A stretch of 64,000 bases of DNA, from assembly GCF_026151205.1 (NCBI RefSeq), contig NC_087082.1, forward strand, positions 5,773,908-5,837,907. The letters are read 5' to 3'. Of the stretch, positions 2,289 to 62,581 are shown one piece after another (within the stretch, counting starts at the first letter, position 1; every line of letters begins with the position of its first letter). Under the pieces are notes generated by a model. That model did no database searches and was not told where the DNA came from. It worked only from the letters and a program-made list of their open reading frames with translations. Source of the stretch: Bolinopsis microptera (lineage: Eukaryota > Ctenophora > Tentaculata > Lobata > Bolinopsidae). The position numbers and the translations under genes were made by a program.

Positions 2289-2340
2289 ATGTCTTCCTCC
2301 TGGATAGGTGGTGGGGGTAACATCCAGATATCGAGCAATG
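2289..2340 (+). CDS. CCAR1: CCAR1 exon 1 (start codon)
   Basis: Encodes MSSSWIGGGGNIQISSN and the first base of a Gly codon. The donor is G|gtaagt. A T-rich tract and AG end one base before the ATG, so the exon is preceded either by a 5'UTR intron or by a spliced-leader acceptor. No upstream in-frame ATG improves on this start. Confidence 0.8.
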
Positions 2341-59700: not shown

Positions 59701-62581
59701 AACAACATAAATCGCACAGTCAAACGACAGCCAGGTAATTTGTTGGTATGTTTATTTGGTATGTTGAACGGTCCGTTCAACATACCAAATTAACATGCCA
59801 ACAGAACGGTCTATTAATACTTATATGAGATTTATAAGTATCAATAGTAACTCGCTGACCGACAACTCGGCCTAATTATTTTAGGTTCTCACACTCAGAC
59901 AGGGTAGGGTGTCACGTGACTATATGCACGTGGGCAGTCACGTGACTATGTGCACGTGGGCAGTCACGTGGTCTGATTTGTTGCGTGACAATCAGAACAA
60001 TTTTTGGACGAGAATTTGGTCTAATCTAAATAAAAGATCTTATGACAAATATCTGAGCAATATACATTTGCAAACAAACTTGTGAATAAAGGTTTGGTTA
60101 ACAATGATAGGGGTAATAATGAATCGTAATTAGGGTTTAAGGTTTAATTTTTCTGTCGTAAAATTTTACATATATTAGCGATAAGAGAAATACCATTGTT
60201 GGACGTGAGGAGAGTGAGGACTCCTCAAACTACATTAAATTAATTCCTTCTGTAACGTCCTGAATAAATATAGTTACGAAAACAAAATTTACTAACAATT
60301 TTAAAACATTTTAAAACGTACTGAAGTTCACCAAAAAATGTATTATATACGGTATTACTAATGCAAAGATAAAACAAAAGAACAAATAATAATCAAAACA
60401 AATATCAACATAATATAACATAATGTATTTATATTTTATATAACACCTTGTTATACAGATAGTATAAACAACAGTCTTAATAACAGAACAAATAATTATA
60501 CTTGCTATCAATTAGGGGTAGTTGGGTAATAAACGTTTTGTTAAGTAGCTTATTAGTACGCTGTGCACGTGGGCAGCTAACTAGTACGCTGTGCACGTGG
60601 GCAGCTAACTAGTACGCTGTGCACGTGGGGAGCTAACTAGTACGCTGTGCACGTGGGCAGCTAACTAGTACGCTGTGCACGTGGGCAGCTAACTAGTACG
60701 CTGTGCACGTGGGCAGCTAACTAGTACGCTGTGAACGTGGGCAGCTAACTAGTACGCTGTGCACGTTGGCAGCTAACTAGTACGCTGTGCACGTGGGCAG
60801 CTAACTAGTACGCTGTGCACGTGGGCAGCTAACTAGTACGCTGTGCACGTGGGCAGCTAACTAGTACGCTGTGCACGTGGGCAGCTAACTAGTACGCTGT
60901 GCACGTGGGCAGCTAACTAGTACGCTGTGCACGTGGGCAGCTAACTAGTACGCTGTGCACGTGGGCAGCTAACTAGTACGCTGTGCACGTGGGCAGCTAA
61001 CTAGTACGCTGTGCACGTGGGCAGCTAACTAGTACGCTGTGCACGTGGGCAGCTAACTAGTACGCTGTGCACGTGGGCAGCTAACTAGTACGCTGTGCAC
61101 GTGGGCAGCTAACTAGTACGCTGTGCACGTGGGCAGCTAACTAGTACGCTGTGCACGTGGGCAGCTAACTAGTACGCTGTGCACGTGGGCAGCTAACTAG
61201 TACGCTGTGCACGTGGGCAGCTAACTAGTACGCTGTGCACGTGGGCAGCTAACTAGTACGCTGTGCACGTGGGCAGCTAACTAGTACGCTGTGCACGTGG
61301 GCAGCTAACTAGTACGCTGTGCACGTGGGCAGCTAACTAGTACGCTGTGCAGGGTTACCTTTAAAAGTCTGGTGTTCATGTTTGGTTTGAAGCGAAATGA
61401 AGATAGAATGAGGGTTAGAGTCGGGTGTATGATTAGATTTAAAATTTGGTATGTGGAAGTATGGTTTAACTGTGCTGCGAATTGCCGTTGTTTACTTGGT
61501 TGCTGTCGAATGAATGATCAAGTACTGGATTAGCATCGTAAAGAAAGTGGATGTGTGTACCCTCATGCTACTAGGGTCTAGGATACAGAGTGAGATGATA
61601 CGTTTAAACAGTGGAAAGAGGCTGCTTGTTGTTTACCCAGTTATCAATTACTCGGTTAGTGATTAGGGAGCTCGTATCTGAAATCATGACGTATGGTCCT
61701 TAATCCGAATAAGGTACAATGGAAGTCACCTGCACGTGCACCCTTTAGAGATAATAAACTACTGGAAAGATTAGGACTGATGAAGTCATGAGGTAGTTCA
61801 GTTTTAGATCACACCCCTCTATTATTAGTAAAACTATTTAATTTTAGTTCAGTTGATAAGATTAATTGACATATTATTGTTGTCCTAGGAAAGAAAGTGT
61901 GCTGGCAGTTTCGTAAGCACGGAAGATGCAGACAAGGGCACAAGTGCAGGTTTGCTCATGATAACGACCTGTTCAACGGAGCCGGCACTATTCCTTCTAA
62001 AGCAACTCCTGCTTTCGGTAAGAAGTTTCAGAATTCAAACCCCTACTATCCGACATCCGTCTATACATCGATGAAACCGTGTTGTTTAGAATATTAAGAA
62101 ACGTTATTACAACTAAATTCCAGGTAGTGGTTACTCAGCATTACCTGGTTACTATAACAACTAAATTCCAGGTAGTGGTTACTCAGCACCGCCTGGTTAC
62201 TATAACAACTAAATTCCAGTAGTGGTTACTCAGCACCGCCTGGTTACTATAACAACTAAATTCCAGGTAGTGGTTACTCAGCACCGCCTGGTTACTATAA
62301 CAACTAAATTCCAGCAGTGGTTACTCAGCACCGCCTGGTTACTATAACAACTAAATTCCAGAAGTGGTTACTCAGCACCGCCTGGTTACTATAACAACTA
62401 AATTCCAGGTAGTGGTTACTCAGCACCGCCTGGTTACGAACACCCTTTAGAGGAGGAGGAAGAGGATGGAGCTCCTAAGAAGAAGAAGAGAAAGTTCGGT
62501 TTACCAGACACTCTTATTCCTAAAGCAAAGGTTATCACTATCTACAAGGACCATAAGAAGAAGGAGAGATCCTTTAAGTGA
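56705..62581 (+). CDS. CCCH zinc-finger protein, four exons, about 194 aa
   Basis: Exons 56705-56878, 57046-57154, 61889-62017, 62409-62581; all phases match. The N terminus is acidic ([20 protein letters not shown]). Exon 2 is a charged helix ([19 protein letters not shown]). Exon 3 holds one CCCH finger, [20 protein letters not shown] (Cx8Cx5Cx3H), usually an RNA-binding module. Exon 4 has an acidic run, the nuclear-localisation-like PKKKKRKF and a conserved-looking tail [16 protein letters not shown]. One finger plus an NLS suggests a nuclear RNA-processing factor, but I cannot name the orthologue. The exon 1 donor (gtcatt) is weak. AG at 56697-56698 lies 6 bases before the ATG. Intron 2 (4.7 kb) contains the GPCR gene and a CACGTG array. 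Confidence 0.82.
57621..59069 (-). CDS. Class A-like G-protein-coupled receptor, single exon, nested in the CCCH gene
   Basis: 482 residues, ATG at 59067-59069. Seven hydrophobic helices: TM1 with [10 protein letters not shown]2 [13 protein letters not shown]3 ending [17 protein letters not shown]4 [15 protein letters not shown]5 [20 protein letters not shown]6 [19 protein letters not shown]7 [24 protein letters not shown] fits NPxxY and helix 8 follows. TM3 has TSR where DRY is usual and TM6 has CNFP for CWxP, so this is a divergent receptor. A TM3-ECL2 Cys pair is available (VCVVWE; GAYCYY). The tail has about five 20-residue repeats ([19 protein letters not shown]) from a 60-bp minisatellite. 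An Asn-glycosylation site is at residue 2. Ligand unknown. A pyrimidine-rich cccag ends 5 bases before the ATG. Confidence 0.9.
   Translation of the reverse strand: MNASHNPHVKSYPDYPGMKTPFISLDYSLGSLLLLCALVGIPGNILGATFFTSTNKKDRVTLLYISICCIDSVTSFTHLPVTIAMFRGRRPGMFNSYLVCVVWEILYTILQKMSIFLVLLLSTSRTVAIVKPFYKMRIRTVMGCVVGYLIILLLIPFLQFLIPPLRGEYKYSWDGAYCYYNFEMKFEHAVNLVMVGLPPILTFITLIVSITKLYFSAKKSVSSKPKSPRARTIKRMKNKATITIAMFTSLFLVCNFPLFINMMHNMTTRFFGVEYPGAYFGTRFMYWYSWHIAKMESVVVNAALNPIFYYCRMKRFRKWCNLLITCRFPKSEVYHTQGFTQLQASDTVQQQVVRSDSTSETGRPRTPRPSQVGRPVCTSETGRPRTPRPSQVGRPVCTSETGRPRTARPSQLGRPVCTSETGRPRTPRPSQVGRPVCTLETGRPRMARPSQVVRTVCTTGWVHPSQSENVMTEIDCEIDRSV
57719..58005 (-). repeat. 60-bp coding minisatellite in the GPCR tail
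   Basis: Five units of about 60 bp encode TSETGRPRT(P/A)RPSQ(V/L)GRPVC. They are highly similar, so copy number may vary between individuals. The unit keeps all six frames open, which explains the extra frames here. Confidence 0.93.
59070..59518 (-). other. GPCR upstream flank
   Basis: AT-rich, no gene. Contains the T/C-rich tract and CAG directly before the GPCR start. Confidence 0.45.
59519..59790 (+). repeat. About 126-bp tandem duplication with terminal hairpin
   Basis: AGTGCCTCAGACTGCA... GGTATGTTGAACGGTC occurs at 59522-59645 and 59646-59776 with small differences. Positions 59754-59790 form a 37-base near-perfect palindrome (TGGTATGTTGAACG / CGTTCAACATACCA). Confidence 0.85.
59910..59970 (+). 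repeat. 26-bp E-box duplication
   Basis: GTCACGTGACTAT-TGCACGTGGGCA occurs 2.5 times. Contains CACGTG twice per unit and resembles half of the 28-bp array at 60553. Confidence 0.85.
60195..60275 (-). mobile_element. LINE 3'-end fragment, inverted
   Basis: The reverse complement matches 24540-24620 (GGACGTTACAGAAGGAATTA, GAGGAGTCCT, CTCTCCTCACGTCC). Confidence 0.55.
60541..61352 (+). repeat. 28-bp minisatellite with one CACGTG E-box per unit (about 29 copies)
   Basis: Unit GCTAACTAGTACGCTGTGCA plus CGTGGGCA. Almost every unit is identical and has TGCACGTG; only three show single-base changes (GTGAACGTGG, GCACGTTGG, GTGGGGAG). It lies in CCCH intron 2, about 1.5 kb upstream of the GPCR start. 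Confidence 0.96.
61353..61888 (+). other. End of CCCH intron 2
   Basis: No gene recognised. A GCACGTGCAC palindrome lies at about 61731-61740. Confidence 0.45.
62105..62408 (+). repeat. 46-48-bp array duplicating the CCCH exon 4 acceptor and exon start
   Basis: Six upstream copies of AATTCCAG|GTAGTGGTTACT and CAGCACCGCCTGGTTAC precede the real exon 4. In each upstream copy the coding part is followed by TATAACAACTAA, so entering at any earlier acceptor adds ...PGYYNN and stops. Three copies have lost the GT after CCAG. Confidence 0.93.

Follow-up and report, generated by a model that had tools for sequence, protein, structure and literature searches.

Minisatellites spanning splice junctions in CCAR1 and at further donor sites of the ctenophore Bolinopsis microptera

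In a 64,000-nucleotide stretch of the genome of the ctenophore Bolinopsis microptera (contig NC_087082.1, positions 5,773,908 to 5,837,907; hereafter the window) the gene for CCAR1 carries tandem arrays at many of its exon-intron junctions, and in six of these arrays the repeat unit itself comprises exon sequence together with the splice site. Outside the window, array starts are in excess at the donors of predicted exons. The arrays are probably, though by no means certainly, junction-spanning minisatellites of the kind termed 'mirages' in amphioxus, which would be hidden from the mRNA by splicing and would be seeded or expanded with a bias towards 5′ splice sites.

The CCAR1 gene and its junction arrays

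The CCAR1 gene extends from 2289 to 46158 on the plus strand, the strand of all the junction arrays of the window, and encodes 1031 amino acids in 21 coding exons, as derived from a gene model, a homologue and Pfam. In this model the exons join into a single open frame and every internal junction is of the GT/AG type. The predicted protein contains S1-like, SAP, DBC1 and LAIKA domains and is 82% identical over 99% of its length to a homologue from Mnemiopsis leidyi (P0001), which in the protein comparison is continuous across the array-bearing junctions and free of repeat sequence. An AG immediately 5′ of the ATG makes an upstream untranslated exon possible. Exon numbers agree with those of an earlier reading of the window (the sequence-only reading) through exon 4 and are higher by one from that reading's exon 7 onward.

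Tandem Repeats Finder (TRF) returned 85 rows for the window, which merge into 58 arrays; 44 with a period of at least 7 lie in the CCAR1 span. With a TRF score of at least 80, 13 CCAR1 arrays have an edge no more than 35 nt from a junction, seven at donors and six at acceptors, and a further one is found in a CCCH zinc-finger gene. The earlier count of at least ten arrays at splice junctions is thereby borne out, all 12 junctions listed carrying an array, and so is its statement that units often hold exon sequence plus the splice site, which applies to six CCAR1 arrays and the one in the CCCH gene.

On the donor side, three arrays begin shortly inside the intron: a 12-bp array (2350 to 2952) 9 nt into intron 1 (exon 1 donor 2340/2341), a 24-bp array (5594 to 6187) 2 nt into intron 4 (donor 5591/5592) and an 18-bp array (31674 to 31754) 8 nt into intron 15. 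The other four span the donor and start within the exon. At exon 8 (donor 16378/16379) a 92-bp unit composed of 48 nt of exon and 44 nt of intron is present in 10.6 copies (16331 to 17301). A 46/52-bp array (19624 to 19822) begins 27 nt before the exon 14 donor (19650/19651), a 39-bp array of 59.5 copies (39924 to 42243) 18 nt before the exon 16 donor (39941/39942) and a 56-bp array of 3.8 copies (44127 to 44346) 42 nt before the exon 17 donor (44168/44169).

On the acceptor side, two CCAR1 arrays reach into the exon. A 23-bp array of 10 copies (19135 to 19366) with CAG|GTAAC in its unit extends 5 nt past the exon 14 acceptor (19361/19362), and a 19-bp array (44768 to 45115), most units of which contain CAG|GTAA, extends 3 nt past the exon 19 acceptor (45112/45113). 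Across donors 8, 14, 16 and 17 and acceptors 14 and 19 the units thus hold the splice site and 3 to 48 nt of exon. The remaining four arrays stop within the intron, namely 5 nt short of the exon 18 acceptor (24 bp, 2.3 copies, 44458 to 44519), 20 nt short of the exon 9 acceptor at 17610/17611 (30 bp, 17435 to 17590), 23 nt short of the exon 21 acceptor (C-rich, 45713 to 45881) and 31 nt short of the exon 17 acceptor (24 bp, 2.2 copies, 43943 to 43995). In the CCCH gene, a 48-bp array of 7 copies (62105 to 62437), located 3′ of a zinc-finger exon (61889 to 62017), spans the last-exon acceptor (62408/62409) with 29 nt of exon in its unit; the homologue P0028 lacks the repeat and reads straight across the junction.

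The boundary of exon 9, exon 8 in the sequence-only reading, is doubtful. The acceptor and the start of this exon are present as a second copy near 17405 to 17440, and an alternative acceptor at 17415/17416 lies 5′ of the 30-bp array, which is in frame and may be coding. An exon start at 17416 instead of 17611 adds 65 in-frame residues including the array; this start was chosen by the exon finder described below, and the Mnemiopsis protein is without those residues. Apart from this case, the junctions deduced earlier were recovered together with their arrays.

In all seven spanning arrays of the window the copy belonging to the exon body occupies the end of the array that faces the exon. This exon-bordering copy is taken as the authentic one, so that the extra copies would extend towards the intron. 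TRF matches range from 83 to 98% across these arrays. In the exon 8 array the exon copy has two variants in common with copy 7 alone, and in the exon 14 donor array a deletion form is common to copies 1 and 4, from which it follows that the exon copy exchanges sequence with the array.

The exon 16 array is open throughout in one frame (39802 to 42318, 838 amino acids), and each retained unit would therefore add 13 residues. Remnants of it are found at about 42940 to 42990 and at 43331 to 43435, beyond inserted elements. One of these belongs to an approximately 650-bp repeated element with TATTAAAG repeats, recognized by eye in two copies (29209 to 29880 and 42245 to 42930); the second copy lies within the exon 16 array and is flanked on both sides by AACTAG, resembling a target duplication. 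The other insert (42985 to 43330) looks by eye like a tRNA-like short interspersed element, and no tRNA was detected there by ARAGORN; Rfam and tRNA scans gave no matches.

Array positions compared with chance

The excess of arrays at CCAR1 junctions over chance depends on the null. When arrays are placed freely, 10 lie no more than 10 nt from a junction where 5.3 are expected (p = 0.0085 by shift, 0.03 by uniform placement). If exons are instead kept whole, with an overhang of up to 60 nt permitted and only the 22 arrays with a score of at least 120 considered, 9 of the 22 have an edge no farther than 10 nt from a junction. Confining each array to its own intron gives an expectation of 3.5 (p = 0.0002), and allowing any intron gives 1.2 (0 of 20000 placements as high). 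Since the window was picked for its striking look, independent loci carry more weight.

Donor sites at independent loci

For this purpose 28 other 10-kb stretches of the genome were used, first 20 whose positions had been fixed beforehand, spread over 12 of the 13 large contigs, and then 8 more. Exons were predicted with an exon finder trained on CCAR1 and three open reading frames (ORFs) of the window and then checked on CCAR1 itself, where 17 of 19 internal exons are exact; at a score of at least 20, 20 of 24 predictions on the plus strand of the window overlap a CCAR1 exon. Before counting, predictions inside ORFs of at least 1200 nt were discarded (17 of 54 in the first set, 3 of 28 in the second), which leaves 62 exons with a score of at least 20 in frames shorter than 1200 nt. 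The donor window for rates reaches from −60 to +15 nt, narrowed from −60 to +35 following a first look.

An array starts at the donor in 7 of these 62 predicted exons, where 1.55 are expected (none of 1500 shifts as high), and none of the 62 has an array at the acceptor. This restriction to donors outside CCAR1 goes beyond the sequence-only reading. At a lower exon threshold 8 of 123 donors have an array against 2.9 expected (p = 0.009). Over thresholds of 20, 16 and 12 the matches amount to 7/62, 8/123 and 10/227 in the real sequence and to 1/17, 2/56 and 2/140 in a reversed-sequence control, according to which roughly one in four exon predictions at threshold 20 may be spurious.

All seven matches were inspected by eye. 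Three of them belong to an ABC transporter gene, one with a spanning 67-bp unit in eight copies and two with further donor arrays; the others are a golgin-like exon with a spanning 97-bp unit, a kinase, and cases with 67-bp and 37-bp units. Pfam backs the transporter and the kinase, and weakly, below its cut-off, the golgin-like and WSC exons, while the exon in locus L027 gave no Pfam match. In L012 the predicted donor appears misplaced, the likely one lying a unit earlier and still at the array. Spanning arrays are present at predicted exons in L013, L022, L027 and L028. With the threshold lowered, donor arrays are seen at four out of five exons assigned to the ABC transporter, and a two-copy 45-bp duplication crosses the donor of another exon, which we take to be an RBM5/10-like OCRE exon.

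Pooled with CCAR1, array starts peak sharply between −60 and +20 nt of the donors (14 of 82), farther into the intron they number about 1.5 per 40-nt bin, and arrays occur at 14 donors versus 3 acceptors of 82 each (Fisher p = 0.009).

Furthermore, splice-site words were counted over the 264.65-Mb assembly (232 contigs). MAGGTAAGT, the donor word, was counted 6480 times, compared to 4500 for the reversed, 4532 for the permuted and 4434 for the permuted reversed control word. Tandem pairs with a gap of 10 to 40 nt number 1084 for the donor word and 7, 92 and 142 for the three controls; at gaps of 41 to 70 nt there are 996 against 8 for a control. Among the matches listed, which reach up to 9.77 Mb of contig C3, 9 distinct places are found for the donor word versus 2 for the permuted word. 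The pair counts do not place each array at a used donor.

A possible origin of the arrays

According to the favored interpretation, a short tandem duplication of about 20 to 100 bp would cover a splice junction, usually a 5′ splice site, and would expand through unequal exchange or slippage. Splicing would use the splice-site copy nearest the exon, in which case the further copies would leave with the intron and the protein would be unchanged. Duplications of 3′ splice sites would mostly be weeded out, because there an upstream copy would take precedence. The acceptor-spanning arrays that survive may do so because their exon begins with GT, so that a new donor would be present after a wrong first splicing step; three cases suggest this exception. 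AG|GTA is found at the used site in all three acceptor-spanning arrays, compared to 6 of the 20 CCAR1 acceptors overall, two being common to both sets.

Several observations weigh against this interpretation. Within CCAR1, plain overlap between arrays and junctions does not exceed chance when arrays are free to swallow exons (6 versus 4.8 expected, p = 0.36). The earlier claim that chance would rarely reach so many junctions holds for array edges, which lie closer than placement in introns gives and with which the independent loci agree, and does not hold for overlap. In the 28 loci the first set contributes 6 of 37 donors and the second, of 8 loci, 1 of 25, the matches cluster by gene, with three of the seven in the one transporter gene, and at the strictest exon score (28 exons) every setting is non-significant, with 1 to 3 matches and p from 0.07 to 0.38 (for one setting 2 of 28 versus 0.55 expected, p = 0.10). 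A few large arrays dominate the word-pair counts, and the acceptor word TTYNCAGGT forms 1169 pairs versus 154 for its control, not normalised by single-word counts, which speaks against acceptors being spared. In 52 random arrays splice-like motifs are not enriched overall (donor p = 0.14, acceptor p = 0.75). Arrays starting +2 to +12 nt past a donor cannot be aligned to that donor (six of six non-significant), hence the donor need not have seeded such arrays, and their explanation as degraded donor copies was rejected for want of alignment support. Finally, the GT after AG has been lost in 3 inner copies of the CCCH array.

If duplication were even along genes, with exonic arrays purged and donor arrays hidden by splicing, no seeding bias would be needed. 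Such pure survivorship accounts for arrays that respect exons and for acceptors being fewer than donors. It would, however, let intron interiors tolerate arrays at least as well, whereas arrays at donors outnumber the expectation about 4.5-fold in the 28 loci and, depending on the null, 2.6- to 7.5-fold in CCAR1. We therefore regard survivorship by itself as unlikely. Preferential duplication or survival of harmless duplications, the choice posed by the sequence-only reading, was the right question in form; the several-fold excess at donors relative to intron interiors points to something beyond survival, and 5′ splice sites would accordingly also be seeded or expanded more often.

Properties of units and copies

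Many units contain AG|GT, and they might therefore be read as self-erasing: each unit would run from GT to AG, its dual-specific AG|GT would serve a second splicing step by which the mRNA is restored exactly, leaving the array free to grow. AG directly precedes GT in six of nine donor-spanning units; AG|GT is present in the units at CCAR1 donors 8, 14, 16 and 17 and acceptors 14 and 19 and is missing in L027, L028 and L012. GT likewise follows AG at the used site of all three acceptor-spanning arrays, the exon-end AGs at array donors are somewhat more acceptor-like (median 5.85 versus 1.0, p = 0.06), and dual-specific sites in human tandem repeats are on record (PMC10809524). Against this stands the conservation of the copies: in eight arrays pooled, conservation of the AG|GT core does not exceed that of the remaining unit sequence (18/714 versus 131/4402), and in the CCCH array the core is conserved worse (p = 0.002). 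Core conservation being ordinary, nothing indicates that the copies are functional. Moreover, the exon 16 unit scores poorly as an acceptor (−3.3), and units of 19 to 39 nt are too short for introns by themselves, all of which makes self-erasure distinctly improbable. In-frame alternative donors gain no support either, since only two of nine donor-spanning units have a length that is a multiple of three (39 and 45).

A function of the arrays at the intron start, as splicing enhancers or regulatory elements kept by selection, would fit their restriction to the donor side in the 28 loci and a word like GTTGTCATGGTAAC that is common to arrays at two loci (window 3106 to 4397 and L022). The other junction units, though, share little past the splice site as judged by eye, and the splice core is unconserved among copies; of all the explanations considered we give this one the least credence.

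A role of the arrays in chromatin loops was considered and rejected, nothing in the accessible part of the ctenophore loop work (PMC12221973) linking loops to these arrays.

Comparison with known systems

The sequence-only reading knew of no described system of this kind, a claim that the literature contradicts. Amphioxus mirages (PMC3087553) are minisatellites across exon-intron boundaries of Adh3 and of the globin genes BflGb6 and BflGb9. They are found at 5′ and 3′ boundaries, with many AG/GT units and concerted evolution, and splicing is reportedly undisturbed; the mechanism that generates them is called unclear there. The ctenophore arrays resemble them in units which span the boundary (six in CCAR1, one in the CCCH gene), in the length of the spanning units (19 to 97 bp, compared to about 10 to 160 bp in amphioxus) and in concerted evolution, with variants common to exon and inner copies in two arrays. 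Unlike the mirages, they occur in a ctenophore, at seven donors of one gene, with genome-scale counts and a donor bias, and they are known here from the DNA of one assembly alone.

In human, dual-specific AGGT sites are in excess in tandem repeats, in UBC and others (PMC10809524). Common to both systems is AG|GT within the tandem unit. The human arrays have coding units and both intron ends inside the repeat. The ctenophore arrays are one-sided and intronic, where an array of the human class would be expected to contain both ends of an intron whose length is a multiple of the unit. Internal tandem repeats at exon-intron boundaries have also been described in recent human segmental duplicates, with 27 intron modifications (PMC2812944); boundary repeats that affect intron structure are shared with that system and the setting of recent segmental duplicates is not.

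Intron gain through duplication (PMC4974935, PMC3443670, PMC2891723) similarly involves a splice or proto-splice site. Duplication of AGGT makes a new intron there, whereas the ctenophore duplication lengthens an existing one. The arrays might nevertheless be leftovers of introns born by tandem duplication of exonic AGGT, a route that is on record (PMC4974935, PMC3443670) and with which the GT following AG at 9 of 20 internal CCAR1 acceptors, six of them GTA, would agree. The arrays are one-sided, however: those in introns 13 and 18 hold the acceptor without the donor, those spanning donors stop short of the acceptor, and the other end of each spanning-array intron lies outside the array. Intron birth is consequently a very improbable source of the arrays.

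Among the titles and abstract openings found, none reports such arrays for ctenophores, most subscription papers being beyond the search. The kind of array is already known; what is new is its occurrence in this phylum, how frequent it is and its bias towards donors.

Further repeats and open reading frames

Arrays at different loci have in common a word resembling GTTGTCATGGTAAC or GGTTACC (window 3106 to 4397 and 30878 to 31217; L022). Long ORFs are located inside CCAR1 introns, of which one on the minus strand (20313 to 22169) encodes a BTB-like protein as judged by eye, and two on the plus strand a family 2 glycosyltransferase (36869 to 38344) and a reverse transcriptase (35289 to 36284) according to Pfam. 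A perfect (GA)175 microsatellite (38395 to 38744) lies directly 3′ of the glycosyltransferase ORF. At 57692 to 58020 a 60-bp in-frame coding repeat of 5.5 copies lies in the tail of a minus-strand rhodopsin-type G-protein-coupled receptor. Closely similar adjacent ORF copies are present in two of the independent loci (L016, 1289 to 4721, and L021, 1793 to 9107).

Implications

Beyond the bias itself, the 5′ splice site might in this lineage be a germline hot spot of tandem duplication that acts through a process linked to transcription or splicing, for which polymerase pausing, R-loops or nicking where exon and intron meet would be candidates. About one in nine donors of predicted exons would then bear an array, and splicing would shape the mutation spectrum of a gene. 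We put this forward as a tentative extension that is rather doubtful at present. If about one in nine donors does head an array, a kind of repeat familiar from a few lancelet genes becomes common in a phylum that branches off at the base of the animal tree. The arrays would also inform on intron growth and on duplication driven by splicing or transcription, and they would let the spliceosome's choice between identical 5′ splice sites be studied in many naturally occurring cases.

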